Below, piece after piece: positions 40,212 to 54,857 of a DNA stretch of 64,000 nucleotides. The DNA comes from Pseudomonas sp. MYb118 (GTDB lineage Bacteria > Pseudomonadota > Gammaproteobacteria > Pseudomonadales > Pseudomonadaceae), in contig NZ_JBFRXN010000002.1 in assembly GCF_040947875.1 (NCBI RefSeq), forward strand, positions 3,224,001 through 3,288,000, in the 5' to 3' direction. A program made the position numbers and the translations under genes. Numbering within the stretch: position 1 is the first letter of the stretch; each line of letters opens with the position of its first letter. A model generated the notes under the pieces. The model saw nothing but the letters and a program-made list of their open reading frames with translations. It was not told where the DNA came from and did no database searches.

Positions 40212-41153
40212 TCATTTGCTCAGGGCATGCTCGGCCCGCACTGAATTCATGAACGCCTGCATGGCAGACGATTGAATGCGATGGCGCCGGGTGATCAAGC
40301 CATAAGGCGGCAGACGCGCCTCGAACTTGATCGGCAGCACCGCCAGCAGGTCGCGGCCGGGGTAGTCCTCGACCACCGAAACCGGGGTGACGCCGAGCAT
40401 GTCGGTCTGCTGGATGAGCGACAGCAAGGTCATGATCGAGGTGGTTTCGACGATGCTGCTGGGGATGTCGACCCGTGCGTTGTGGAACACCTGGTTGATG
40501 ATCGCGCGCATCGGGCTGGGTTGCTGTTGCAGCACCCAGGTCATGTTCTGCAGTTCGGCCCAGCTCAGGTGTTTCTCGTTCGCCAGCGGGTTTTGCGCAC
40601 TGGCGATCACGCACAGCGCCTCTTCGGCGAGGCTGTCGAACAGCAGTTCTTCGGCCCGGGCCCCGGCCGGAATGCGCCCCAGGACGATGTCGAGCTGGTC
40701 CTGCAAAAGTGCCTGGACCAACACGTCGCTGGTGTCGACCTGGATGCTCATCGACAGGCGTGGATGGCTGTGTTTCAGGGTGGCGATGGTGCGGGTCAAC
40801 AACCCCGAGGCCAGCGCTGGAATGGCGCCGACCGCAACGCGGCCGAGGTTGCCGGATTCCAGCGCGACCAGTTCTTCACGCATGCCGCTCAGTTCAGCGA
40901 AGACCATGCGCGCGTAATAGATCACGGTTTCCCCGAACGGGGTCGAGCGCATGCCACGGGGCAGGCGCTCGAAGAGTTCGACGCCGAGCAGGTCCTCGGC
41001 CTCGTGCAGCATCTTGGTGGCTGCCGGTTGGGTCATGCCGATGTGATCGGCGGCGCGGCGCAATGAACCGAATTCCTGCAACGCCAGCATCAGCCGCAAT
41101 TGGCGCAGGCGCAGTCGACTGTGTATCACATTGGCTTCAGGAATTCTTGTCAT
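40212..41153 (-). CDS. LysR-family regulator of the sugar-acid locus (predicted)
   Basis: A 313-residue LTTR of the GbpR-like branch: HTH LRLRQLRLMLALQEFGSLRR, MTQPAATKMLHEAEDLLG, LFERLPRGMRSTPFG, then an effector domain from about residue 95. It is the last gene of the leftward tct set, 64 bases after tctA. The T-N11-A palindromes at 44461, 44590 and 48183 have the form LTTRs bind, making it the likely activator. ATG 41153 matches LTTR N-termini; the longer frame does not. Confidence 0.9.
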   Translation of the reverse strand: MTRIPEANVIHSRLRLRQLRLMLALQEFGSLRRAADHIGMTQPAATKMLHEAEDLLGVELFERLPRGMRSTPFGETVIYYARMVFAELSGMREELVALESGNLGRVAVGAIPALASGLLTRTIATLKHSHPRLSMSIQVDTSDVLVQALLQDQLDIVLGRIPAGARAEELLFDSLAEEALCVIASAQNPLANEKHLSWAELQNMTWVLQQQPSPMRAIINQVFHNARVDIPSSIVETTSIMTLLSLIQQTDMLGVTPVSVVEDYPGRDLLAVLPIKFEARLPPYGLITRRHRIQSSAMQAFMNSVRAEHALSK

Positions 41154-41178
41154 GGGCGGCGCTCGCAGGAAAGACTGC

Positions 41179-41210
41179 GGCAAGCCTGACAATAAATGTC
41201 AGGCATTGCC
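41179..41210. promoter_or_regulatory. Hairpin between tctA and its lysR gene
   Basis: GCCTGACA-ATAAA-TGTCAGGC, 8 perfect bp, extended by GGCAA/TTGCC with one bulged A. There is no T-run on the minus strand, so it may be an mRNA stabiliser, weak terminator or operator separating transporter and regulator expression. Confidence 0.55.
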
Positions 41211-41217
41211 AGCGTCA

Positions 41218-42744
41218 CTACACCGATTTGGTCTTGGCGACAGGGGATTTACGCAGACCGAGCACGCTGGCCAGTGCCTTGGAAATCAGCGGCCAGAACA
41301 GCATCAGCAGGGCGGCGGTGGTCAGGCTGCCCACCAGCGGGTTGGACCAGAAGATACCAACGTGACCGTCGGAGAACAGCATCGACTGGCGGAACGCATC
41401 TTCGGCTTTGTCGCCCAGCACAGCGGCCAGAATCAAGGGTGCAATCGGGTAGCCCAGTTTTTTGAACAGGTACCCGAGCGCGCCAAAGCCCAGCATCAGC
41501 ACCACATCGAAGAACGAATTGTGCACCGTGTAGGCACCGATGGCGCAGACCATGATGATGATCGGGGCGATCACCGAAAACGGGATGCGCAGGATCGAGG
41601 CGAACAGCGGCACGGTGGCCAGCACCACGATGAGGCTCACCACGTTGCCCAGGTACATGCTCGCAATCAGGCCCCAGACGAAATCGTGCTGCTCGACGAA
41701 CAGCGTCGGGCCAGGGTGCAGGCCCCAGATCATCAAGCCGCCGAGCATCACCGCCGCCGTGGCCGAACCCGGAATGCCCAGGGTCAGCATCGGCAGAAGC
41801 GCGCTGGTGCCGGCGGCGTGGTCGGCGGTTTCCGGGGCGATCACGCCTTCGACTTCGCCTTTGCCGAAGTTTTCGCGATTCTTCGAGAAGCGCCGCGCCA
41901 TGCTATAGCTCATGAACGAAGCGGCGGTCGGGCCACCAGGGGTAATGCCCATCCAGCAACCCACCAGGGTGCTGCGCACAATCGTCCACCAGTAGCGTGG
42001 CAGTTTTGCCCAGGTGCGCAGGATGACCATCGGTGTAATCCGCGCACGTTCGCCACGGAACACCTGGCCTTCCTCGACGGTGCAGAGGATTTCGCCGATG
42101 CCGAACAGGCCGATCACCGCCACTTCGAAGCTGATGCCGGTCATCAGGATCGGTTGGTCGAAGGTCAGGCGCAGGTTGCCGGAGACGGTGTCCATGCCGA
42201 CCGCTGCCATGGCGAAACCGATCATCATCGCCACCACGGTTTTCAGTGGCGGGTTCTTGCTCATGCCGATGAAGGTACAGAACGCCAACAGGTACACAGC
42301 GAAGAACTCGGGCGAGCTGAACGTCATGGCGAACGCGGCGATCTTGGTCGACAGGAAGGTCAGCAACAGCACCCCGGCCAGCGCGCCGATCAGCGCCGAA
42401 CTGAAGGCGGCGGTCAAGGCTTCGGCGGCGCGACCTTCACGGGCCATCGGGTAGCCGTCGAACGTGGTCGCCACCGATGAAGGTTCACCGGGTATGTTGA
42501 ACAGGATCGAGGTGATCGAGCCGCCAAACAGCGCACCCCAATACATGCACGACAGCAGGATGATCGCCGACACCGGCGACATGGTGAACGTCAGCGGCAG
42601 CAGCAACGCCACGCCATTGGGGGCGCCGAGGCCGGGCAGTACGCCGACCAGAATGCCCAGCAATACGCCGACCACCATCAGGCCGATATGGCCCGGCGTG
42701 AGGATCAGGTTCATGCCTTGCAGCAGGGAATCGAACTCGCTCAT
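41218..42744 (-). CDS. tctA: Tripartite tricarboxylate transporter, large permease TctA
   Basis: 508 residues, about 12 TM segments. GVLPGLGAPNGVALLLPLTF and MGITPGGPTAASFMSYSMARR are the TctA repeat signatures (G-x-x-x-G-x3-P). It moves the carboxylate with a Na+ or H+ gradient after delivery by TctC. ATG 42744 overlaps tctB by ATGA; the longer frame is unsupported. The substrate is inferred to be an aldonic or aldaric acid from the neighbouring catabolic genes. Confidence 0.93.
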   Translation of the reverse strand: MSEFDSLLQGMNLILTPGHIGLMVVGVLLGILVGVLPGLGAPNGVALLLPLTFTMSPVSAIILLSCMYWGALFGGSITSILFNIPGEPSSVATTFDGYPMAREGRAAEALTAAFSSALIGALAGVLLLTFLSTKIAAFAMTFSSPEFFAVYLLAFCTFIGMSKNPPLKTVVAMMIGFAMAAVGMDTVSGNLRLTFDQPILMTGISFEVAVIGLFGIGEILCTVEEGQVFRGERARITPMVILRTWAKLPRYWWTIVRSTLVGCWMGITPGGPTAASFMSYSMARRFSKNRENFGKGEVEGVIAPETADHAAGTSALLPMLTLGIPGSATAAVMLGGLMIWGLHPGPTLFVEQHDFVWGLIASMYLGNVVSLIVVLATVPLFASILRIPFSVIAPIIIMVCAIGAYTVHNSFFDVVLMLGFGALGYLFKKLGYPIAPLILAAVLGDKAEDAFRQSMLFSDGHVGIFWSNPLVGSLTTAALLMLFWPLISKALASVLGLRKSPVAKTKSV

Positions 42745-43274
42745 TTGAAGTGTCTCCAGGCCATGGCAATCAAGTCGCCCAGGGGGCCTGCATCCAGCGG
42801 GACCTTGAACCACAACGCGAAAATCAGGTAACTGGCCAGCGCTGCGCCGAGGGATACGCTGGCGATCATCAGTTTGCCGTAGGGTTGGGCGCGGACCTTG
42901 TCACGGGCCATGAACCAGGCGATGAAACAGGCCGACGCCACATAGATGCCGGTGAAGGGCATGGCGGCGACGAACAGGGCAATCGGGATGAACACCGACA
43001 GCACCTGGCGGAACGCGTTGCGACTGACAAAGGCAATGTTCAGTGCCTGCCAGCGCACCAGGGTCAACACGCCGTTGGCTACGCTCGCCGCGCACAGCAT
43101 CAGGCCGATGTAGAAGGGGAAGTAACCCGGCTCGGGGCCGGCATCACCCCAGCCGATACCTTGTTCGACACTGCCAATCATCACCACCGCGCCAATCAGC
43201 GCGGTGAAGGCGGCCAGGCCGAGTTCGATCCAACGGGTGCCGACCAGTGCCGGTGAATCCGAAGAATGGGACAT
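42741..43274 (-). CDS. tctB: Tripartite tricarboxylate transporter, small permease TctB
   Basis: 177 residues with four hydrophobic segments and the DAGPEPGYFPFYIGLML motif typical of TctB. Sits between tctC (50 bases upstream) and tctA (ATGA overlap). Confidence 0.92.
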   Translation of the reverse strand: MSHSSDSPALVGTRWIELGLAAFTALIGAVVMIGSVEQGIGWGDAGPEPGYFPFYIGLMLCAASVANGVLTLVRWQALNIAFVSRNAFRQVLSVFIPIALFVAAMPFTGIYVASACFIAWFMARDKVRAQPYGKLMIASVSLGAALASYLIFALWFKVPLDAGPLGDLIAMAWRHFK

Positions 43275-43324
43275 GCAAACACCTCCAGAGGCGACGGCCG
43301 CGCAGGGGGGCGGCCGTCACAGAC

Positions 43325-44341
43325 TCAGTTTTTCAGCCAGCCGGCTTCCTTGAACACCGGAGTGACGCGGGCGGTGTCTTTTTCGATGTAGGCGGTCAGT
43401 GGCTCGCCTTCGAGGAAGGTCGGCACCAGCGCGTTCTGTTTCACGTAGGCCTTGAACTCAGGCGTCTCGGTGACTTTGCGCATCAGCTCGACATAGAACG
43501 CGCGCTGCTCGGCGGTGACGTCGCCCGGCATGAACACAGTGCGCGGGAAACGGTACTGATCGACGCCCAGGCCCTGCTCGTGGCAGGTCGGCACGTCGGC
43601 CCAGGATTTGTCGCCGGCGACCTTGTCGGTGTAAGCCATGCGTTCCTGGCTGAACACGCAGAGCGGTTCGACCTGGTCGCCACGCCACTGGCTGATGCTT
43701 TCGGCGGGGTTGTTGACGTTGGCGGCGATGTGTTTGCCGGCCAGTTGCGTCGCGGCTTCACTGCCGCTCTTGAACGGGATGTACACCAGCTTGCTGTTGT
43801 TGGTCTGGTTGAGCAGCAGAGTCAGCGTTTGGTCCACGTCCTTGGACTGGCTGCCGCCCATGCGCATCTTCGAAGGATCGGCCTTGGCCGCTTCGTAGAA
43901 ACCCTTGGCATCCTTCCACGGCGCGCCTTTGTAGCTCCACAGGATGAAGTCATCCTCGGCCACGGCGGCGACGGGCGTCAGTTCCTGCCATTGGTAACCG
44001 AGCTTGGACACCAGCGGCAGCAGGTAGATGTTGTTGGTGCCGATCACCAGCTTTTCCGCATCGCCCTTGTTCATTTTCATGTCGAGGAACGCTTCGGCGC
44101 CGTTGCCGCCGCCCTTGTTGAGGACGATGGTGTTGACGTCGAGCAGCTTGTGCGTGGTGATGATCGACTGAATCAGACGGCCGAGTTGATCGGTGCCGCC
44201 ACCGGGGCCGCCGGCAACCACGATCTCGACGTTCTTGTCCGGTTGCCAGGCGGCACTGGCCAGGGCGGGCAGGGCGCCGGCCGCTATCAGCGTGCAACCA
44301 AGGAACAGACGGGAGGTGCGACGGACGAATGCATTTCGCAT
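43325..44341 (-). CDS. tctC: Tripartite tricarboxylate transporter substrate-binding protein TctC
   Basis: A 338-residue periplasmic BUG-type receptor. Signal peptide ends near ASAAW (about residue 32). VEIVVAGGPGGGTDQLGRLI is the first ligand loop and GGGNGAEAFLDMKMN the second. BUG receptors bind carboxylates through main-chain amides, so specificity cannot be read here. First gene of tctCBA; an operator-like palindrome lies 120 bases upstream. Confidence 0.93.
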   Translation of the reverse strand: MRNAFVRRTSRLFLGCTLIAAGALPALASAAWQPDKNVEIVVAGGPGGGTDQLGRLIQSIITTHKLLDVNTIVLNKGGGNGAEAFLDMKMNKGDAEKLVIGTNNIYLLPLVSKLGYQWQELTPVAAVAEDDFILWSYKGAPWKDAKGFYEAAKADPSKMRMGGSQSKDVDQTLTLLLNQTNNSKLVYIPFKSGSEAATQLAGKHIAANVNNPAESISQWRGDQVEPLCVFSQERMAYTDKVAGDKSWADVPTCHEQGLGVDQYRFPRTVFMPGDVTAEQRAFYVELMRKVTETPEFKAYVKQNALVPTFLEGEPLTAYIEKDTARVTPVFKEAGWLKN

Positions 44342-44460
44342 TGGAAGGGCCTCGTTTTTGTAGTTGTTATGAGTGACTTGTCGGTGCTCGAAAGCTGCAA
44401 GCCTGGCCCGAGTGTGGGAAGGCGCCGCGCTCGCGTCTAGTCAAAACAATACATATACCG

Positions 44461-44475
44461 ATAGCCTGAGGTTAT
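44461..44475. promoter_or_regulatory. LysR-type palindrome, copy 1 (tctC side)
   Basis: ATAGCCTGAGGTTAT, a 15-base imperfect palindrome with T-N11-A form, 120 bases before tctC. It matches copy 2 in the pattern ATANCCNNNGGNTAT. The 44342-44720 intergenic stretch otherwise contains no gene. Confidence 0.55.
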
Positions 44476-44589
44476 AGCTTGCTTGGAAATGAATTGTGAC
44501 AGTTATCGAATGTCCCGTTCCAGAGCGTTTTCGGGGTATTTTGGTGGGGGAGCAACGGCGTTGAAAGGTCGCTGAAAGCGGGGTCTGCC

Positions 44590-44604
44590 ATAACCCGAGG
44601 CTAT
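44590..44604. promoter_or_regulatory. LysR-type palindrome, copy 2 (MFS side)
   Basis: ATAACCCGAGGCTAT follows the same ATANCCNNNGGNTAT pattern, 117 bases before the MFS start. Copies 1 and 2 lie 129 bases apart and nearly equidistant from the two divergent genes. Confidence 0.55.
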
Positions 44605-44720
44605 CGCCTTATTTCCAGGTTTGATTAGACGGTTATCGCTGAGCCTTCGATAGTGCTCACCAAGCCGTCCTGGAACGGCACGTTGCCCCCACAAAAAAAT
44701 AATAAATCGAGGTACGCACC

Positions 44721-46061
44721 ATGGCTCGTCCCAGTGCTTCCCTGCATCTGCCAGAAGCCGATGCCCACGCTGCCGCCGCGACTACGCCGCTGGCGGGCAC
44801 AACCAAGGCCAGTAACGTACGCTGGAAGATCTTTGCGATCATTTTCGCGCTCACCATGGTCAATTTGATCGACCGGGTGTCGCTGTCGATTGCGATGCCG
44901 ACCATCGCCCAGGAATTCTCCCTGTCGCCGAGTATGCAGGGGCTGATCCTCAGCAGCTTTTTCTGGGCCTATGCGTTATTGCAGATCCCTGGCGGCTGGA
45001 TGATTGATCGTTTCGGGCCGCACCGGGTGATCAGTTGGTCCACCGGGCTGTGGGGTACGTTCCAGGTTCTCGCGGCGTTTGCCACGGGCGGGTTGTCCTT
45101 GCTGTTTGCCCGGGTTGCGCTCGGCGCTGCCGAGGCGCCGTTGTTTCCTTCAGGCGGCAAATTGATTTCCCTGTGGCTGGCGCCCAGCGAGCGCAGTCGC
45201 GGCGCGGTGCTCATGGACAGCGGCAGCCCGTTGGGTGTGGCGCTGGGCGGTCTGATCATCGCTTACTTGATTGCCACCCTGGACTCCTGGCGCCTGGCTT
45301 TCCTGATCGCCGGTATCGCCACCCTGGTGCTGGGTTGGGTAGCGTGGCGCTTTCTGCGTGACAATCCGGCGACTCACCCGCAGGTCAATGCGCAGGAGCT
45401 GGAGAAAATCAGCGCCGGGCGCGCCACACCTGCTGCCGAAGCGGCACAGATGTCGGTCAAGGGGCTGGGCATTGCGACACGTTCATTGAGTGGTCTGCTG
45501 GTCGGTCGCGCCAGTTGGGCAATGGTGTATTTCGGCCTGCTGACCTGGGGCCCGAGCTACCTGGCGCAGGCACGGGGTTTTGACATCAAGGGCATTGGTG
45601 CGGCGACCTTCGTGATTTTCATCTGCGGCGCGCTGGGCTCGTTGACCGGTGGCTTCCTCTGCGACGGGTTGATCCGCAAGGGTGTCAGCCGGGGCGTGGC
45701 GGTCAAGAGCCTGCTGGCGTTTTCCGGTGTGGTGGCGCTCGGTGCGTTCCTGTTGCTGCCGACCCTGAGTGATCCTTTTGCGGCTGTGGCGCTGTTGGCC
45801 ATGACCGCGTTTTTCCTGATGTGGGGCAGCCTGTACTGGAGCTTCCCGGCGTTGCTCGCCGCTCCAGCACGGGTCGGCCTGGTGGGCGGGGTGATGAACA
45901 TGGCCGGCAGCGTCGGCGGCATCACGGTGCCGATCCTTGTGGGGGTGATTTTGCAAATGACCGGCGGGTTTGCCCCGGTGCTGGGATTCTTCGCGGTATG
46001 TTCGGCAGTCTTCGTACTGGCGACGCTGTTCATCAGTCTCGACGAGGTGCGCCATGGTTAA
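44721..46061 (+). CDS. MFS transporter, anion:cation symporter family
   Basis: 446 residues, 12 TM. TMVNLIDRVSLSIAMPTI with the TM1 motif and GGWMIDRFGPHRVI in loop 2-3 are typical of the ACS group (GudP/GarP/ExuT, phthalate Pht1), which imports sugar acids or aromatic acids. Ribosome site GAGGT. It overlaps the amidohydrolase gene by 8 bases, so uptake and catabolism are co-expressed. Confidence 0.92.
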   Translation: MARPSASLHLPEADAHAAAATTPLAGTTKASNVRWKIFAIIFALTMVNLIDRVSLSIAMPTIAQEFSLSPSMQGLILSSFFWAYALLQIPGGWMIDRFGPHRVISWSTGLWGTFQVLAAFATGGLSLLFARVALGAAEAPLFPSGGKLISLWLAPSERSRGAVLMDSGSPLGVALGGLIIAYLIATLDSWRLAFLIAGIATLVLGWVAWRFLRDNPATHPQVNAQELEKISAGRATPAAEAAQMSVKGLGIATRSLSGLLVGRASWAMVYFGLLTWGPSYLAQARGFDIKGIGAATFVIFICGALGSLTGGFLCDGLIRKGVSRGVAVKSLLAFSGVVALGAFLLLPTLSDPFAAVALLAMTAFFLMWGSLYWSFPALLAAPARVGLVGGVMNMAGSVGGITVPILVGVILQMTGGFAPVLGFFAVCSAVFVLATLFISLDEVRHG

Positions 46062-47010
46062 GTTGTACGACGGCCTGATCATCGACGCCCATCACCACTT
46101 CTGGGATCCGACGGTCAATCCTCATCCCTGGCTCGCGCCCGAGGCCAACATTCCGTTTCGCTACGGCGACTACAACGCGATCAAGCGCCGCTATTTTCCG
46201 GACGATTACTTCGCCGATGCAGGTGCGCACAAGGTCGTGCAAACGGTGTACATCGAGACCGAGTGGGACCCGCAGGACCCGATTGGCGAGACCCGTTTCA
46301 TCGAGCAACTGGCCGCGCGCTACGGCGTGCCGAACGCGGTGGTGGCGCAAGCGTGGCTCGATCACCCGGACGCCATCGCCGTGCTCACCGAGCAGGCTTC
46401 GTTCAAGTGCGTGCGCAGTGTGCGCCACAAGCCGGGCGGGCCGACGTCGCCCGCCGAGGTCGGACACATGCGCAGCCTGATGAGCGACGAGCGCTGGCGC
46501 CGAAGTTACGCGGCCCTGCAAGGGCTGGGATTGCATTTCGATCTGCAGACGCCCTGGTGGAACCTGCATGAAGCCGAGCGCCTGGCGCGGGACTTTCCCG
46601 GCACCACGCTGATTCTCAACCACACCGGCCTGCCCAGTGATCGCAGCGCCGAAGGCCTGGCCGGCTGGCGGCGCGCGATGGCGCGGCTGGCGGAGTGGCC
46701 GAATGTCCAGGTGAAGATTTCCGGCCTTGGGCTCAAGGACCGGGCGTGGCGCGCCAAGGACAACGCCTGGATCGTGCGCGAAGTGATCGCCATGTTCGGC
46801 ACCCATCGCGTGATGTTCGCCAGCAACTTCCCGGTGGACAGCCTGTGTGGCTCGTTCGACGACATTTACAGCGGTTTCAAATCCATCGTTGCTGACCTGC
46901 CGTGGGCGGATCAGGAGCGATTGTTCTACAGCAATGCGCAACGGGTGTACCGCTGCGAGCCGTGCGCCAGCGAGCGCACGCGACCTGAATCCCTGAGGAG
47001 TGAAGCATGA
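46054..47010 (+). CDS. COG3618 amidohydrolase, probable sugar lactonase
   Basis: A 318-residue TIM-barrel amidohydrolase. IIDAHHHFWDPTVNPHPW opens the barrel with the His cluster, VVAQAWLDHPDA and TLILNHTGLPSD follow, and the end FASNFPVDSLCGSFDDIYS carries the late Asp. COG3618 contains L-fucono-, L-rhamnono- and galactaro-lactonases and PDC hydrolase (LigI). With a sugar-acid dehydratase nearby, lactonase is the best guess. Overlaps the MFS gene by 8 bases and pdxA2 by ATGA. Confidence 0.88.
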   Translation: MVKLYDGLIIDAHHHFWDPTVNPHPWLAPEANIPFRYGDYNAIKRRYFPDDYFADAGAHKVVQTVYIETEWDPQDPIGETRFIEQLAARYGVPNAVVAQAWLDHPDAIAVLTEQASFKCVRSVRHKPGGPTSPAEVGHMRSLMSDERWRRSYAALQGLGLHFDLQTPWWNLHEAERLARDFPGTTLILNHTGLPSDRSAEGLAGWRRAMARLAEWPNVQVKISGLGLKDRAWRAKDNAWIVREVIAMFGTHRVMFASNFPVDSLCGSFDDIYSGFKSIVADLPWADQERLFYSNAQRVYRCEPCASERTRPESLRSEA

Positions 47011-48011
47011 CAAAAGTAACCATCGCCATGGTCCTGGGTGACCCTGCCGGCATCGGCCCGGAACTGATCGCACGCCTGCTGGGCGAGGCCGAGGTACGCC
47101 GCCAGGCCAACGTGATCCTGATCGCCGACGAGGCGGAAATGCGCCGTGGCATGCGCCTGGCCGGCGCGGAATTTCCCTACCGTCGCGTGGAGTCGCTGGA
47201 GCAGCTGTCGTTCACAGACGACACGCCGCTGTTCTATGACTTCCGAGGCGATACGGTCGGTGAATTCCCACGCAGCGAAGCCAGTGTCATCGGCGGTCGC
47301 TACAGCCTCGACACCCTGGAAAAGGCCCTGCGCCTGACCGAGGCCGGCACCACCGATGCGGTACTGTTCGGGCCGCTGAACAAGACCTCGTTGCACATGG
47401 CCGGGATGGCGCACAACGACGAACTGCACTGGTTCGCCGAACTGCTGGATTTCCACGGGCCGTTCTGCGAGTTCAACGTGCTCGACAACCTCTGGACTTC
47501 GCGGGTGACCTCGCACGTGGCCCTGGCTGAAGTGCCGGGCATGCTGAGCCAGGAACGGGTGGTGGAAGCGATCCAGCTGATCGACACCGCGCTCAAACGC
47601 AGCGGCCTGGAAAAACCGCGCATCGGTGTCTGCGGCCTCAACCCGCACAACGGCGACAACGGCTCGTTCGGCCGTGAGGAACTGGACATCATCGGCCCGG
47701 CCGTGCGCACCGCGCAGGCCTCGGGCATTGCCGCCGAAGGGCCGTATCCGGGCGACACGATCTTCCTCAAGGTCCAGGGCGACGCCAGTGCCTTCGACGC
47801 GGTGGTAACCATGTACCACGACCAGGGGCAGATCGCGATCAAGCTGATGGGCTTCTCCCGTGGCGTGACCGTGCAGGGCGGCCTGCCGATCCCGATCACC
47901 ACCCCGGCCCACGGCACCGCGTTCGACATCGCCGGGCAGGGCAAGGCCAACCCCGGAGCGATTCGCCAGGCTTTCCAGATTGCTTGTCGGATGGGTAGTA
48001 ACCGCCGCTGA
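47007..48011 (+). CDS. pdxA2: PdxA-family dehydrogenase (PdxA2 type)
   Basis: 334 residues. GDPAGIGPELIARLL, FGPLNKTSLHMAGM, VCGLNPHNGDNG and VTMYHDQGQIAIK are PdxA hallmarks including metal His residues. PdxA2 enzymes oxidatively decarboxylate 4-phospho-D-threonate or erythronate after a DUF1537 kinase; TphB, another PdxA relative, acts on an unphosphorylated diol acid. No DUF1537 gene is in this locus, so an unphosphorylated substrate is possible. It is not the biosynthetic PdxA, which normally lies with ksgA. Confidence 0.85.
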   Translation: MTKVTIAMVLGDPAGIGPELIARLLGEAEVRRQANVILIADEAEMRRGMRLAGAEFPYRRVESLEQLSFTDDTPLFYDFRGDTVGEFPRSEASVIGGRYSLDTLEKALRLTEAGTTDAVLFGPLNKTSLHMAGMAHNDELHWFAELLDFHGPFCEFNVLDNLWTSRVTSHVALAEVPGMLSQERVVEAIQLIDTALKRSGLEKPRIGVCGLNPHNGDNGSFGREELDIIGPAVRTAQASGIAAEGPYPGDTIFLKVQGDASAFDAVVTMYHDQGQIAIKLMGFSRGVTVQGGLPIPITTPAHGTAFDIAGQGKANPGAIRQAFQIACRMGSNRR

Positions 48012-48040
48012 TCGCGGTCCTTCATCTCCAGTGACATCCC

Positions 48041-48131
48041 CTGTGGGAGCGAGCCTGCTCGCGATGACGGCAGTCCAGACACCTGTGTGGTGACTGGCAG
48101 TGCGCTATCGCGAGCAGGCTCGCTCCCACAG
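48041..48131. repeat. REPIN 9, terminator-like
   Basis: 25-bp perfect CCTG-subtype arms followed directly by GTTTTTAT. The unit may end the MFS-amidohydrolase-pdxA2 transcript and separate it from the dehydratase operon. Confidence 0.88.
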
Positions 48132-48182
48132 TTTTTATCCTGCCACCTGATAACCCGATCCACGCAATAAACGCTCGAACCT

Positions 48183-48197
48183 ATTTCCCCAGGTTAT
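48183..48197. promoter_or_regulatory. LysR-type palindrome, copy 3 (dehydratase promoter)
   Basis: ATTTCCCCAGGTTAT fits ATANCCNNNGGNTAT with one mismatch, 141 bases before the dehydratase start. A half-site ATAACCCGA, shared with copy 2, lies at 48150. The rest of 48012-48338 holds the REPIN and no gene. Confidence 0.4.
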
Positions 48198-48338
48198 CGA
48201 CGGATGCGCATAAGTGATTATCCGCGCTCCCCGGCCGCTGGCTAAAGTCGCTCCATCGAATGCCTGGAAGCCGTCACAACAGCGGTTTCGTGCACGCGAC
48301 TCAACAATTACAAGAAGCGCCAGCAAGGAATTGAATTC

Positions 48339-49514
48339 ATGAAAATCAAAGCGATCCGTACCCGCGTATTCGAGTGGAAAGGCAAAGTCGTTCCACCTCA
48401 GGCGCACTTCTGCACCAACGCCAGCGACATCCTGTTCGAACGTGGCGATGCCATGGGCTCGTTCCGTTTCCATGGCTGGCTGGTGGTGGAAGTCGAAACG
48501 GATACCGGTCTTGTCGGCATCGGCAACTGCGCCCTGGCGCCACGTGTGGCCAAGGAAATCATCGACACTTACCTGGCCCCGATCGCCATTGGCGAAGACC
48601 CGTTCGACAACGAATACATCTGGCAGAAAATGTATCGCCAGAGCCACGCCTGGGGCCGCAAAGGCATCGGCATGGCCGCGATCTCGGCGATCGACATCGC
48701 GATCTGGGACATCATGGGCAAGGCGGTCAACAAGCCGGTGTTCAAGCTGCTGGGCGGGCGTACCAAGGAAAAGATCTGGACCTACGCCTCCAAGCTCTAC
48801 GCCAACGACAATCTCGACCTGTTCCTCGAAGAAGCCCAGGGCTATCTGAGCCAGGGCTTCACCGCGCTGAAAATGCGCTTCGGCTATGGCCCGAAAGACG
48901 GCCCGGCGGGCATGCGCCGCAACATCGAGCAAGTGCGCGCACTGCGTGAACTGGCCGGTCCCGACGTGGACATCATGCTCGAATGCTACATGGGCTGGAC
49001 CCTCGAATACGCCCGCCGCATGCTGCCGAAACTGGCCGAGTTCGAACCGCGCTGGCTGGAAGAGCCGGTGATCGCCGATGACATCGAGGGTTACATCGAG
49101 CTGAAGAAGATGGGCATCATGCCGATCTCCGGCGGCGAGCACGAATTCACTTCCTACGGCTTTAAGGACCTGTTGGAACGCCGCGCCGTCGACGTGATCC
49201 AGTACGACACCAACCGCGTCGGCGGCATCACCGCCGCGCGCAAGATCAACGCCATGGCCGAAGCCTGGTCGGTGCCGGTGATCCCGCACGCCGGGCAGAT
49301 GCACAACTACCACCTGACCATGTCCACCACTGCCTCGCCGATGGCCGAGTTCTTCCCGGTGTTCGACGTCGAGGTCGGCAACGAACTCTTCTACTACGTG
49401 TTCAAGGGCGAGCCGCAGCCGGTCAATGGCTACATCCAGCTCGACGACAACAAGCCGGGCCTGGGCCTGGAAATCTCCGATGAGTACCTGAGCGAGTTCA
49501 ACATCATCGAGTGA
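48339..49514 (+). CDS. Enolase-superfamily sugar-acid dehydratase (rhamnonate/lyxonate dehydratase-like)
   Basis: A 391-residue mandelate-racemase/RhamD-group enzyme. The capping domain contains [19 protein letters not shown]. The barrel shows [14 protein letters not shown], metal ligands Glu215 (MLECYMGW), Glu241/242 (WLEEP) and Glu267 (SGGEHEFT), and catalytic His317 ([11 protein letters not shown]). RhamD has Asp where Glu215 is. Substrate is probably a C5 or C6 aldonate giving the 2-keto-3-deoxy acid. First gene of dehydratase-FAH-ALDH. Confidence 0.88.
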
Positions 49515-49566
49515 CCTTCGCGCGCCGCTTTCGGGCGGCGCAATCCCTGACCCAGTGGAGAACAAC

Positions 49567-50562
49567 ATGCGCCTGATTCAATTCGAAAACACCCAAGGGG
49601 AGCGCCAGGTCGGCGTGGTCGAGGGCTCCCGGGTGCTGGTGTTGAACGACACCCGCAGCACCCGTGAACTGGCCCTCGCGGCCATCCGTGGTCAACGCAG
49701 CCTGCAAGACGAAGTGGCCAAGCGCGGCACCCAGCCCGGCCCCGACTACGCGCAGCTGTTGCAACACGGCCAGGTCCTGCCGCCGCTGGATCACGAAGAC
49801 CCGGCCCACTGCCTGATCAGCGGCACCGGCCTGACCCACCTGGGCAGCGCCTCGGCGCGGGACAAGATGCACCAGCAGAACGGCGCGGTGGAAGCCGGCA
49901 TGACCGACACCATGCGCATGTTCAAGTGGGGCCTGGAGGGCGGCAAGCCTGCGGACGGGCAGGTCGGTGCGCAACCGGAATGGTTCTACAAGGGCGACGG
50001 CAGCATCGTCGTGCGCCCTGGCGCGGACTTCCCGGTGCCGCCGTTTGCCGAGGATGCCGGTGAAGAGCCGGAGCTGACCGGGCTCTATGTGATCGGCGAT
50101 GATGGCCTGCCGTATCGCGTCGGTTTCGCCCTGGGCAACGAGTTCTCCGACCACGTCATGGAACGGCGCAACTACCTGTACCTGGCGCACTCGAAACTGC
50201 GCAGTTGCTCCTACGGCCCCGAGCTGCGCGTCGGCGAACTGCCCCGGCACCTGGCGGGCACCAGCCGTATCGTGCGTAACGGCCAGACCCTGTGGGAAAA
50301 GGAGTTTCTCAGCGGCGAGGACAACATGTGCCACAGCCTCGCCAACCTCGAATTCCATCACTTCAAGTACGCGCAGTTCCTGCGCCCGGGCGATGTGCAC
50401 GTGCATTACTTCGGCACCGCCACACTGTCGTTTGCAGATGGGGTGAAGACCCAGCCGGGCGATCGTTTCCAGATCAGCCTCGACGAGTTCGGCGCACCGC
50501 TGGTCAACGGTATCGGTGAGTCTGCCCAGCCCCTGCCGATCGGCCAGGTGCGTACGCTTTAA
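49567..50562 (+). CDS. araD1: FAH-family AraD1 protein (2-keto-3-deoxypentonate dehydratase-like)
   Basis: A 331-residue fumarylacetoacetate-hydrolase-fold protein. SGTGLTHLGSASARDKMHQQ, FALGNEFSDHVMERRNYLYL (metal Glu/Asp) and FLRPGDVHVHYFGTATLS match the AraD1/XylX type. XylX dehydrates 2-keto-3-deoxy-D-xylonate to 2-oxoglutarate semialdehyde; that step fits between its two neighbours. ATG 49567 follows GTGGAG; the upstream GTG is part of that site. Confidence 0.88.
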   Translation: MRLIQFENTQGERQVGVVEGSRVLVLNDTRSTRELALAAIRGQRSLQDEVAKRGTQPGPDYAQLLQHGQVLPPLDHEDPAHCLISGTGLTHLGSASARDKMHQQNGAVEAGMTDTMRMFKWGLEGGKPADGQVGAQPEWFYKGDGSIVVRPGADFPVPPFAEDAGEEPELTGLYVIGDDGLPYRVGFALGNEFSDHVMERRNYLYLAHSKLRSCSYGPELRVGELPRHLAGTSRIVRNGQTLWEKEFLSGEDNMCHSLANLEFHHFKYAQFLRPGDVHVHYFGTATLSFADGVKTQPGDRFQISLDEFGAPLVNGIGESAQPLPIGQVRTL

Positions 50563-50585
50563 GTCGGTCGCTCAAGGAAACCTCC

Positions 50586-52166
50586 ATGACCTCGATACTC
50601 GGACACAACTACATCGGTGGCCGGCGCAGTGCCAACGGCACCGTGCAACTGCAAAGCCTCGACGCCAGCAGCGGTGAGCCGCTGCCGGCGCGATTCTTCC
50701 AGGCCAGTGAAGCCGAAGTGGACGCCGCCGCCAAGGCTGCGGCCGCCGCTTATCCGATCTACCGCAACCTGAGCGCGGAACAACGGGCGACGTTCCTCGA
50801 CGCCATCGCCGATGAAATCGACGCGCTGGGCGATGAATTCGTCGCCACCGTATGCCGCGAAACCGCGCTGCCGGCGGGGCGTATCCAGGGTGAGCGCGGA
50901 CGCACCAGCGGCCAGCTGCGCCTGTTCGCCAGGGTGCTGCGTCGCGGTGACTTTTACGGCGCACGGATCGACCGCGCGCTGCCGGATCGCCAGCCGCTGC
51001 CGCGCCCGGACCTGCGCCAGTACCGCATCGCCCTGGGGCCGGTGGCGGTGTTTGGCGCGAGCAACTTTCCGCTGGCCTTTTCCACGGCCGGTGGTGATAC
51101 CGCCTCGGCCCTGGCCGCCGGTTGCCCGGTGGTGTTCAAGGCCCACAGCGGGCACATGGCGACGGCCGAGTGGGTCGCCGACGCGATCATCCGTGCCGCC
51201 GAACGCACGCGCATGCCGGCCGGCGTGTTCAACATGATCTATGGCGCCGGCGTCGGCGAGTGGCTGGTCAAGCACCCGGCCATCCAGGCCGTGGGCTTTA
51301 CCGGTTCGCTCAAGGGCGGCAATGCCCTGGGCCACATGGCCGCGACCCGGGCGCAACCGATCCCGGTGTTCGCCGAGATGTCGAGTATCAACCCGGTTTT
51401 CCTGCTGCCCGAGGCGCTGAAGGTGCGCGGCGAGCAGATCGCCGCACAATTGGCCGGTTCAGTGACCCTGGGCTGCGGGCAGTTCTGCACCAATCCAGGC
51501 CTGGTCATCGGCCTGCGCTCGCCGCAGTTCAGCGACTTCCTCAAGGCCTTCTGCGCGCAGATGAACGAGCAGCCGGCACAGACCATGCTCAATGCCGGCG
51601 CGCTGGCCAGCTACAGTCGTGGCCTTGGCGAGCTGCACGAGCATCCGGGCCTGACGCACCTGGCGGGTAAACCGCAGCAGGGCAATCAGGCGCAACCGCA
51701 GGTGTTCAAGGCCGATGTCAGCCTGCTGCTCAAGGGCGATGAACTGCTGCAGGAAGAGGTGTTCGGGCCGACCACCATCGTCATCGAAGTCGAGGACCAG
51801 ACCCAGCTCGCCGCAGCGCTGCACGGCTTACGCGGGCAACTGACGGCGACGCTGATTGGCGAACCTGCGGAGTTGCTCGAGCACCGCTGGCTGGCCGAGG
51901 TGTTACAGGAGAAGGTCGGGCGGATCCTGTTCAACGGTTATCCGACCGGGGTCGAGGTGTGTGACGCAATGGTGCATGGCGGGCCGTACCCGGCAACCTC
52001 CGATGCCCGCGGGACGTCGGTGGGGACACTGGCGATCGAGCGTTTCCTGCGGCCGGTGTGCTTCCAGAATTACCCGGATGCGATGCTGCCCGAGGCGTTG
52101 CAGGACAGTAATCCGCTGGGGATTCGGCGGTTGGTGGATGGGGAGGTCAGTAGTCAGGCTTTGTAG
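50586..52166 (+). CDS. 2-oxoglutarate-semialdehyde (2,5-dioxovalerate) dehydrogenase
   Basis: A 526-residue NADP-type aldehyde dehydrogenase of the AraE/XylA-ALDH group, slightly longer than common ALDHs. FGASNFPLAFSTAGGDTASA is the cofactor segment, GFTGSLKGGNAL the turn, FAEMSSINPVF carries the general-base Glu and GCGQFCTNPGLV the catalytic Cys. It makes 2-oxoglutarate and so links the locus to the TCA cycle. 23 bases after araD1. Confidence 0.92.
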   Translation: MTSILGHNYIGGRRSANGTVQLQSLDASSGEPLPARFFQASEAEVDAAAKAAAAAYPIYRNLSAEQRATFLDAIADEIDALGDEFVATVCRETALPAGRIQGERGRTSGQLRLFARVLRRGDFYGARIDRALPDRQPLPRPDLRQYRIALGPVAVFGASNFPLAFSTAGGDTASALAAGCPVVFKAHSGHMATAEWVADAIIRAAERTRMPAGVFNMIYGAGVGEWLVKHPAIQAVGFTGSLKGGNALGHMAATRAQPIPVFAEMSSINPVFLLPEALKVRGEQIAAQLAGSVTLGCGQFCTNPGLVIGLRSPQFSDFLKAFCAQMNEQPAQTMLNAGALASYSRGLGELHEHPGLTHLAGKPQQGNQAQPQVFKADVSLLLKGDELLQEEVFGPTTIVIEVEDQTQLAAALHGLRGQLTATLIGEPAELLEHRWLAEVLQEKVGRILFNGYPTGVEVCDAMVHGGPYPATSDARGTSVGTLAIERFLRPVCFQNYPDAMLPEALQDSNPLGIRRLVDGEVSSQAL

Positions 52167-53231: not shown

Positions 53232-54857
53232 TCAAATTACAAAGCGTGTCACCAGGCCGTTGAGGTCGATGGCCAGCCGCGACAGTTCCTGGCTGGCGGC
53301 CGAAGTCTGGGTGGCACCGGCGGCGGTCTGGGTCGACAGGTCGCGGATGGTCACCAGGTTCTGGTCGACTTCGCGGGCCACCAGCGCCTGTTGTTCGGCG
53401 GCGCTGGCGATGACCAGGTTGCGCTCGTTGATCTGCGAAATCGACGCGGTGATTTTTTCCAGGGCGTTGCCGGCGCTGTTGGCCCGACGCAGGGTCTGGT
53501 TGGCCTGTTCGGCGCTGCTTTGCAACGCGGTGACCGTGGAGCCGGTGCCCTGCTGGATGTTGCTAATCATCAGCTCGATTTCTTCGGTGGAATTCTGCGT
53601 GCGTTGCGCCAGCGAGCGCACCTCGTCGGCGACCACGGCAAACCCGCGTCCGGCTTCACCGGCCCGGGCGGCTTCGATGGCGGCATTGAGTGCCAGCAGA
53701 TTGGTCTGCCCGGCAATGCCGCGGATCACCTCCAGCACCTTGCTGATGTCCTGCGCCTGCGCTGCCAGCCCCTCGGCCTGCGCCGAAGCGTCGAGGACTT
53801 CGCTGACCAGGCCCTGGATTGCGCTGATGGTCTCGCTGACCTGCACATGCCCGTGCTTGCTGTCCTCGTTCGACGCCTGCGAGGCTTCGGCACTGGACAC
53901 GGCATTGGCGGCCACTTCGTCCACGGCGCTGCTCATCTCGGTGACGGCGGTGGCAGCCATTTCGATCTGGTCGTTCTGCTGTTGCAGGCCACGGGTGCTT
54001 TCCTCCATCACCGAGCTCATTTCCTCGGCCGCGGATGCCAGTTGCCGTGCCGAATCGCTGATGCCGCGGATGGTCGAGCGCAGGTTGCCCTGCATGTCGG
54101 CCAGGGCTGAAAGCAGCAAGGCGGCTTCGTCCTTGCCAGCGCTGACGATCTGCCCGCTGAGGTCGCCGTCGGCAATCCGGCGCGCGGCGCTCAGGGCCTG
54201 ATTGATCGGCGTGGTGATGCTGCGGGTCAAGGCCCAGGCCAGCAGCAAGGTGGCGAGCAGGGCCACGATGATGATTACGCCGACGATCCACAGCGCCCGT
54301 TCGTACATGGCCGCTGCGGCCTTGGCGGCTTCATCGGCGCCTTGCTGGTTGAAGCTGATCAACGCCTCCAGCGCTTGATCGACCTTGCCACCCTGAGGCG
54401 CCAGTTCATCGTTGAGGCGGGTGAAGGCCCGCTCATTCTGGCCGGCGGCAATGTGAGCGATGATCTGATCGAGGATCGACAGATATTTACCGACCTCGCT
54501 TGTCAGGGTGGCGAGCATGGCTCGTTCCTGATCGGTGGACAGCGTGGCCTGGTAGTCCTCCAGGCGCTTGAGCAGTTCCTGACGCTGGCCGTTGAGAATG
54601 CCCTTGCTGGTGTCGCGCACCGATTTTTCGTTGACGGTGATCACGCGCAACGACTCCAGGCGGATCCGCGCCATGTTGGCGGCGCTGTCGTGCATGCTTT
54701 CGATGTTGGGCATCCACACTTGCTCGATGACCGCCGCGCTCTCGCGCAGGCTCGCCATCTGACGCAGGTTGAGCAGTCCGACCAAGACAAGAAGGGTCGC
54801 CAGTACGGCGAAACTCAGACTCGCGCGCACACCGATGCGCAGGTTCCTTATAGGCAT
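53232..54857 (-). CDS. Methyl-accepting chemotaxis protein
   Basis: 541 residues. TM1 at about 10-30, a periplasmic four-helix sensor (31-188), TM2 ([21 protein letters not shown]), a HAMP domain ([20 protein letters not shown]) and a cytoplasmic signalling hairpin with the conserved tip [20 protein letters not shown]. No C-terminal CheR-binding pentapeptide. The sensor is helical and short, so small ligands such as carboxylates are plausible; not determined. Its cytoplasmic length resembles the 40-heptad class. Confidence 0.95.

Follow-up and report, generated by a model that had tools for sequence, protein, structure and literature searches.

A putative LysR-controlled locus of Pseudomonas sp. 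MYb118 proposed for the use of 2-carboxy-L-pentonates from decayed vitamin C

The window analysed here is a stretch of 64,000 nucleotides of Pseudomonas sp. MYb118 (contig NZ_JBFRXN010000002.1, positions 3,224,001 to 3,288,000), taken from a genome of 6.58 Mb, and the subject of this report is a ten-gene locus within it which is predicted to take up and degrade sugar acids. Analysis of the open reading frames and of the profile matches of the window confirmed all the ten genes in the order and on the strands given to them by an earlier reading of the letters of this DNA (the sequence-only reading): a LysR gene and the tctCBA genes of a tripartite tricarboxylate transporter are directed one way, while the genes for an MFS permease, a lactonase and a PdxA-family enzyme, together with those for a dehydratase, an AraD1/GguC protein and an aldehyde dehydrogenase (ALDH), are directed the other way (Table 1). 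Transcription of the minus strand runs through tctC, tctB and tctA to the LysR gene, and all three transporter subunits are recognised by Pfam. Overlaps of 4-11 bases are seen between the MFS and lactonase genes, the lactonase and PdxA genes and, with the probable start of TctA, the TctB and TctA genes; the probable starts of LysR, TctA and AraD1 are our own choice. No kinase was found among the ten genes with Pfam and NCBIfam profiles.

Table 1. Genes and LysR-type boxes of the locus, numbered from the first nucleotide of the window
Feature	Positions	Strand	Probable start	Profile match or placement
LysR-type regulator	40212-41192	-	41153	Pfam LysR_substrate + HTH_1
TctA, large membrane subunit of tripartite tricarboxylate transporter	41218-42813	-	42744	Pfam TctA, 496 bits
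TctB, small membrane subunit	42741-43274	-		Pfam TctB, 57.8 bits
TctC, periplasmic binding protein	43325-44341	-		Pfam TctC, 51.4 bits
LysR-type box ATAGCCTGAGGTTAT	44461-44475	none		upstream of tctC
LysR-type box ATAACCCGAGGCTAT	44590-44604	none		upstream of MFS gene
MFS permease	44721-46061	+		Pfam MFS_1
COG3618-type amidohydrolase lactonase, named LacB here	46051-47010	+		Pfam Amidohydro_2
PdxA-family enzyme	47007-48011	+		Pfam PdxA
LysR-type box ATTTCCCCAGGTTAT	48183-48197	none		upstream of dehydratase operon
Sugar-acid dehydratase, mandelate racemase subgroup	48339-49514	+		Pfam MR_MLE_N + MR_MLE_C
AraD1/GguC	49555-50562	+	49567	NCBIfam NF040903, 556 bits (cut-off 340)
Aldehyde dehydrogenase (ALDH)	50586-52166	+		Pfam Aldedh

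A scan with the dehydratase confirmed 572 relatives, of which the best 80 were retained, and the counts of loci given here therefore concern close relatives. The dehydratase is present in every locus by choice of the query, and the top-ranked locus among the named genomes is that of P. laurylsulfatiphila (L005). Gene content was counted in 79 of 84 loci, leaving out the 4.2 kb stretches L001-L004 and the upstream-truncated L038, and presence was decided by chosen identity thresholds, such as 48% for the lactonase and the MFS gene and 50% for PdxA. All ten genes occur together in 22 of the 48 Pseudomonas stretches, so the arrangement is not a matter of chance; this compares with none of the 31 non-Pseudomonas stretches, in which only portions of the set are seen.

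The content of the loci is nested. The MFS gene is present in 43 of the 79 loci, every time with the lactonase LacB, and LacB in 51, every time with PdxA, which itself is present in 72; the L074 lactonase (56%) is a long-branch row and lies apart from the dehydratase. The seven stretches lacking PdxA are L040 and L046, whose genomes carry an orthologue elsewhere, L042, L044, L062 and L084, in whose genomes only paralogues of 30-36% and no orthologue were found, and L076. On the dehydratase DNA tree, about 11 of 13 independent pairs show a joint change of MFS and LacB (median p 0.00098) and about 5.6 of 14 a joint change of LacB and PdxA (median p 0.031), with no opposite change in either case. 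Nested content and tree pairs together thus give an order of gain and loss that runs from permease through lactonase and PdxA to dehydratase. Among the reduced forms, L017, L026 and L049 retain TctCBA and PdxA in genomes without such a lactonase at E 1e-40, and L042 and L044 retain only LysR, a second MFS gene (MFS2) and the dehydratase, with neither a PdxA orthologue nor such a lactonase in the genome.

AraD1 and ALDH are linked to the locus less strictly than MFS, lactonase and PdxA. The dispersal in relatives that was named beforehand as speaking against a common pathway is thus found for a part of the set, AraD1 being absent from 9 and ALDH from 16 of the 48 Pseudomonas stretches, while lactonase, PdxA and dehydratase remain linked. 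AraD1 is present in 41 of the 79 loci and a DHDPS-family gene in 18, with no overlap between the two; this split mostly tracks lineage, but 2-keto-3-deoxypentonate dehydratases are described from both superfamilies (PMC6336799).

The operons also appear to share a regulatory site, a palindromic LysR-type box of AT-N11-AT form with the consensus ATARCCNNNGGYTAT, of which two copies stand in the interval from tctC to the MFS gene and a third precedes the dehydratase gene. The window holds six matches at two or fewer mismatches against 0.45 expected, a count which is partly circular, as two of these sites served to define the pattern. Within the loci of the 49 named Pseudomonas genomes, a box scoring at least 10/12 lies in the 350 bases before the dehydratase in 32, and in the 13 loci where MFS2 precedes the dehydratase the box stands about 1.5 kb upstream, before MFS2; overall the dehydratase unit is preceded by a box in 45 of the 49, none being found at this score before the dehydratase of L011, L028, L040 and L050. 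The 49 loci contain 233 matches, compared with 46 in the same sequences reversed, and in some Caballeronia loci a match of score 9 stands about 137 bases before the dehydratase. A relative of the LysR protein (at least 45% identity) is encoded in 65 of the 79 loci. The locus may thus be described as a putative single regulon of three operons to whose boxes the LysR protein would bind. The alternative of two unrelated operons that are neighbours by accident was rejected on the common box and the nested gene content.

The lower part of the pathway is the most readily assigned. The dehydratase matches PDB entries 3stp, 3ssz and 3sqs over its full length, belongs by Pfam to the mandelate racemase subgroup of the enolase superfamily and carries K178-x-R180, D290 and H317 in 80 of 80 loci. 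A KxR at strand 2, a catalytic His at strand 7 and a catalytic Asp at strand 6 are what we take to be the marks of L-lyxonate dehydratase (LyxD), for which both the residues and the family make this protein a candidate. It is 90-100% identical across ten compared Pseudomonas loci, the minima for the other locus genes being 68-86%. Its four-fold degenerate sites have diverged (61-83% identical, against 46-83% in the other genes), which suggests strong purifying selection; recent lateral spread was considered as a cause of the similarity and judged unlikely on the same ground.

AraD1 has no Pfam match at E 0.001, and in sequence it reaches the solved structure 2q18 only at E 0.01. Its structural model is weak, with a mean predicted local distance difference test score of 63, and the entries nearest to it in fold, 2q1d (E 7.6e-9) and 9kkt (E 4.1e-6) at template modelling scores of about 0.5, are 2-keto-3-deoxyaldonate dehydratases, so that the protein may be regarded as a candidate 2-keto-3-deoxy-L-pentonate dehydratase. 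The nearest solved relatives of the ALDH are 3v4c (447 bits) and 1eyy, and Cys301 and Glu264 were assigned by motif. It does not reach the cut-off of any of the 25 NCBIfam models among the matches listed, and the equivalog of GudD-type 2-oxoglutarate semialdehyde dehydrogenase (NF042993) gives 100.8 bits against a cut-off of 770; its place in the locus makes it a candidate for that activity. Taken together, the locus very probably encodes a route from L-lyxonate to 2-oxoglutarate. The series aldonate, 2-keto-3-deoxyaldonate, 2-oxoglutarate semialdehyde, 2-oxoglutarate proposed by the sequence-only reading is supported by the invariant dehydratase residues and by the weak AraD1 model, and the same KxR, His and Asp residues support the likeness it saw to the L-lyxonate route of P. 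aeruginosa. That pathway, described in strain PAO1 by Ghasempur and colleagues in 2014, reportedly proceeds by the same reactions of a dehydratase, a 2-keto-3-deoxyaldonate dehydratase and a semialdehyde dehydrogenase. The reduced LysR-MFS2-dehydratase loci (L042 and L044) resemble a plain lyxonate locus more than the window does. PA2214 has been tabulated as a putative L-lyxonate transporter (PMC10413270).

The upper part of the locus is best compared with the degradation of vitamin C. In Ralstonia eutropha H16, as Stack and colleagues are said to have described in 2020, L-ascorbate is oxidised and its ring opened to 2,3-diketogulonate, which a WD40-like enzyme reportedly converts to 2-carboxy-L-lyxonolactone in a benzilic acid rearrangement; hydrolysis of the lactone, removal of a carboxylate by a PdxA-family enzyme that uses NAD (nicotinamide adenine dinucleotide) catalytically, and conversion of L-lyxonate to 2-oxoglutarate reportedly follow. 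A cytochrome b561 and a gluconolactonase are said to serve the oxidation of ascorbate and the opening of its ring in pathways of this type. The amidohydrolase lactonase, the PdxA-family decarboxylase and the L-lyxonate route to 2-oxoglutarate reported for H16 have their putative counterparts in the window. In eight of the 79 loci the stretch also holds a beta-propeller gene and a lactonase of a second clade, here called LacA. The beta-propeller protein has its best match in 1l0q, with further matches to designed propellers and weakly to YncE, and from context and fold that of L043 would be the WD40-like rearrangement enzyme; these loci thus probably represent the known L-ascorbate pathway. A beta-propeller gene is likewise grouped with a permease, LacA and a LysR gene in Cupriavidus necator UYPR2.512, and with PdxA, dehydratase, LacA and ALDH in the genome of L064 (Paraburkholderia tuberum). 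Microbial use of ascorbate has been noted for its unusual chemistry (PMC11066805), and an ascorbate pathway requiring a COG4948 enzyme has been mentioned (PMC10444878).

The L043 beta-propeller protein has no close orthologue in the genome of the window, where the best match is 28% over 131 residues (E 2e-7) and none reaches 1e-30. At E 1e-30 the protein is present in seven of the 49 named Pseudomonas genomes, in six of them at 78-100% and in that of L050 at 37%, so that 43 of the 49 lack a close orthologue, and in 10 of the 31 non-Pseudomonas genomes. Of 298 genomes drawn from the genus, 43 carry the dehydratase (the present one included), five the beta-propeller protein and three both; a close orthologue is missing from 40 of the 43 dehydratase-bearing genomes. 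Matches of 36-40% (L101-L103; G023, G186) were counted as other proteins. Two of these five, the relatives of 36-37% in the genomes of L050 and L052 (L119, L120), lie in other neighbourhoods where blastp found no pathway genes.

The PdxA-family enzyme would link the two halves. Its residues T288 and I297 align with Asn292 and Arg301 of E. coli PdxA, which we take to be phosphate ligands, and all 60 orthologue rows (58 different ones and one from a further genome, the window's own row occurring twice) have Thr and Ile at these places, versus Asn and Arg in 14 of 14 aligned paralogues. The best 120 database relatives have Thr in 119 cases and Ser in one at the first position, and Ile in 117, Val in two, a gap in one and Arg in none at the second. 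The four PdxA proteins encoded in the same plasmid stretch as a LacB relative have Thr with Ile or Leu, and a P. aeruginosa PdxA at 79% identity has Thr with Ile; Asn and Arg are aligned in 6e85, a solved D-threonate 4-phosphate dehydrogenase. The window enzyme falls into one orthologue group with the PdxA of the beta-propeller loci and of the Cupriavidus necator strain (66%). It is probably not the vitamin B6 enzyme, because the genome encodes another PdxA (31% identity). On these residues and relationships the enzyme resembles the decarboxylase of the bacterial ascorbate pathway and does not look like PdxA2, and a role as a decarboxylase that feeds the lower route seems likely. The names carried by its best 120 relatives refer to vitamin B6 or erythronate-phosphate, or read 'hypothetical'.

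The lactonase scores 85.9 bits with the NCBIfam fuconolactonase model (cut-off 400). A quick tree, in which long branches were flagged, separates the lactonases into the beta-propeller-linked LacA and the LacB clade with a Shimodaira-Hasegawa-like approximate likelihood-ratio support of 100, and places the window enzyme in LacB with the Caballeronia MFS-PdxA-lactonase loci, outside LacA. Five loci (L041, L043, L045, L051 and L052) have both types of lactonase but one such PdxA each; LacA and LacB therefore probably feed the same decarboxylase. The lactonase has Asn259 at the place of the Asp in the SDWPV motif of its solved relative 4dlf, and Asn is present in 16 of 16 aligned lactonases of both clades. 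The best NCBIfam model for the MFS permease is a D-galactonate transporter (236 bits, below the cut-off of 395), and the nearest solved chains for TctC are TctC/Bug-type proteins, among which no named sugar-acid binder was found. In view of the strict coupling of the MFS gene with the lactonase, the permease is proposed as a lactone importer, and the open 2-carboxy-L-pentonate dicarboxylate is proposed as the ligand of TctC. Carriage of the open dicarboxylate by TctCBA is suggested by L017, L026 and L049 and by the chemistry, not by the statistics; the retention of TctCBA and PdxA in these three loci without a lactonase would be expected if TctCBA carries the open acid.

For a substrate which had been called not obvious, a candidate can now be proposed: as the PdxA is decarboxylase-like and is encoded between the lactonase and the dehydratase, 2-carboxy-L-pentonolactones are suggested. 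Under conditions mimicking the apoplast and with no enzyme, diketogulonate yields 2-carboxy-L-lyxonolactone, 2-carboxy-L-xylonolactone and one open dicarboxylate, and these products slowly lose carboxylate to give L-lyxonate and L-xylonate (PMC11066805). The 2-carboxy-L-pentonate products are called relatively stable (PMC5398285), and '2-carboxy-L-lyxonate' and '2-carboxy-L-xylonate' are synonyms of the open acid (PMC6225978). With moderate confidence, and inferring every substrate, we regard the locus as a LysR-controlled regulon for 2-carboxy-L-pentonate and its lactones arising by the non-enzymic rearrangement of 2,3-diketogulonate; that these compounds are scavenged directly, with no ascorbate steps, has in our view slightly more than an even chance.

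According to this proposal, the MFS permease would import the lactones and TctCBA the open dicarboxylate. LacB would open the ring of a 2-carboxy-L-pentonolactone to the dicarboxylate, from which PdxA, recycling NAD as a cofactor, would remove one of the two geminal carboxylates to give L-lyxonate. The dehydratase would then form 2-keto-3-deoxy-L-lyxonate, AraD1 would convert it to 2-oxoglutarate semialdehyde and the ALDH would oxidise this to 2-oxoglutarate, and the plain lyxonate loci (L042, L044) would use L-lyxonate formed spontaneously. A consumer of these compounds needs uptake, a lactonase, a decarboxylase and the lyxonate route, and the presence of two uptake systems, an aldonate-type permease and a carboxylate-type transporter, therefore makes sense. 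The scheme of the sequence-only reading, from lactone to aldonate and onwards, is supported in its lower steps; its start from a plain sugar lactone is less likely, since PdxA would be left without a role. As both lactone epimers yield the same dicarboxylate, one PdxA can serve both lactonases. The enzymatic ascorbate pathway is not known to make 2-carboxy-L-xylonolactone, and we advance only tentatively the narrower idea that LacB opens this epimer and that the locus is dedicated to vitamin C debris arising non-enzymically in the apoplast, its lactones entering through the MFS permease and its dicarboxylate through TctCBA.

Several observations weigh against the proposed scavenging of 2-carboxy-L-pentonates. 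On the dehydratase DNA tree TctC/Bug was not significantly coupled with either PdxA or the lactonase; 20 of the 79 stretches have neither AraD1 nor the DHDPS-family gene, and 35 have no ALDH of either kind sought. At the score used above, 30 of the 31 non-Pseudomonas stretches have no box near the dehydratase, L080 being the sole exception. Among the six stretches opened from the 30 matches listed, out of 230 plasmid records with a match, a Methylobacterium nodulans plasmid combines MFS (60%) and LacB (66%) with a more distant PdxA (44%) and a reductase but no dehydratase in the stretch, and LacB relatives may therefore serve another substrate. Plasmid stretches of Chelatococcus and Ponticoccus carry TctCBA, LacB and PdxA together without a dehydratase of the window type, and the context is still more different in those of Microvirga, Variovorax and Mesorhizobium; either the dehydratase of the plasmid loci is encoded elsewhere or their lactonases make something else. 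The three genomes of the draw with both dehydratase and beta-propeller protein imply that full ascorbate use probably exists in the genus, and the genome of the window holds five SGL-family and four cytochrome b561-family matches, all outside the locus, so that a front end built on some unrelated enzyme for the rearrangement is possible.

These last genes, together with the PdxA and lower pathway common to the beta-propeller loci, would suit a complete L-ascorbate pathway with its initial steps encoded elsewhere or proceeding without enzymes inside or outside the cell. We consider it unlikely, given the absence of a close beta-propeller orthologue from this genome and from most of the named Pseudomonas relatives, and a lactonase of the LacB and not the LacA clade. 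Closer to the sequence-only reading, the MFS permease and lactonase might deliver plain L-lyxono- or another aldonolactone directly to the dehydratase, with TctCBA and PdxA serving a separate acid. Both the joint gain and loss of MFS and lactonase and the loci L017, L026 and L049, with TctCBA and PdxA in the absence of that pair, are consistent with such a division; yet the lactonase is without PdxA in 0 of 51 loci, though a plain aldonolactone needs no PdxA, and we hold this explanation to be rather improbable. PdxA2 enzymes are dehydrogenases of 4-phospho-acids with a DUF1537 kinase in the same operon, and the window PdxA would on that model act on a phosphorylated four-carbon acid supplied by such a kinase. 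Most named proteins among its best 120 relatives are called 4-hydroxythreonine-4-phosphate dehydrogenase and a few D-erythronate 4-phosphate dehydrogenase, and the genome has one DUF1537-type gene. That single match lies on another contig (G000:C1:944812-945495), no DUF1537 kinase being found linked to the locus, the window PdxA scores 210.5 bits with the model for D-threonate 4-phosphate dehydrogenase (cut-off 583), and the presumed phosphate ligands are replaced throughout the orthologue rows. A PdxA2 with its kinase was rejected on the ligands and the missing linkage and is very improbable; the label 'PdxA2' used in the sequence-only reading is given up on the division between orthologues and paralogues at these two residues.

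The chemistry of the lower half is already known, and what appears to be new in the proposed regulon is the combination of a separate lactonase clade with its permease, a carboxylate transporter, a shared box and a missing front end. The window differs from the H16 ascorbate pathway in having no close beta-propeller orthologue in the genome and a lactonase of a separate clade, as well as in its TctCBA, another MFS permease and one LysR-type box over three operons. With the PdxA2 pathways for D-threonate and erythronate it has in common the PdxA family and an acid-sugar context, but it lacks a linked DUF1537 kinase and the presumed phosphate ligands. No description of such a variant was found in the literature searched, which mostly excludes subscription papers, so that one may be in print. 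The accessible portions of the literature using the names of 2-carboxy-L-pentonates concern plants, food or chemistry, one paper citing bacterial ascorbate work. The compounds are ascorbate products of plant cell walls (PMC11066805). If the proposal is correct, a conserved bacterial gene set would give the 2-carboxy-L-pentonates an ecological fate and L-lyxonate a natural source, and the misannotation of this PdxA under vitamin B6 and erythronate-phosphate names would be corrected; on the narrower idea, bacteria living on decayed vitamin C would be found among the plant-associated Pseudomonas.

Two further features were noted in and near the locus. An inverted repeat, TGTGGGAGCGAGCCTGCTCGCGAT and its complement, lies at 48042-48132 between PdxA and the dehydratase and is presumably of the repetitive extragenic palindromic type common in Pseudomonas. 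A chemoreceptor gene (methyl-accepting chemotaxis protein with a 4HB sensor) is found nearby at 53232-54857 and recurs in 8 of the 84 loci, among them L042 and L044, where lactonase and PdxA are absent; a link between this receptor and the substrate of the locus is possible.

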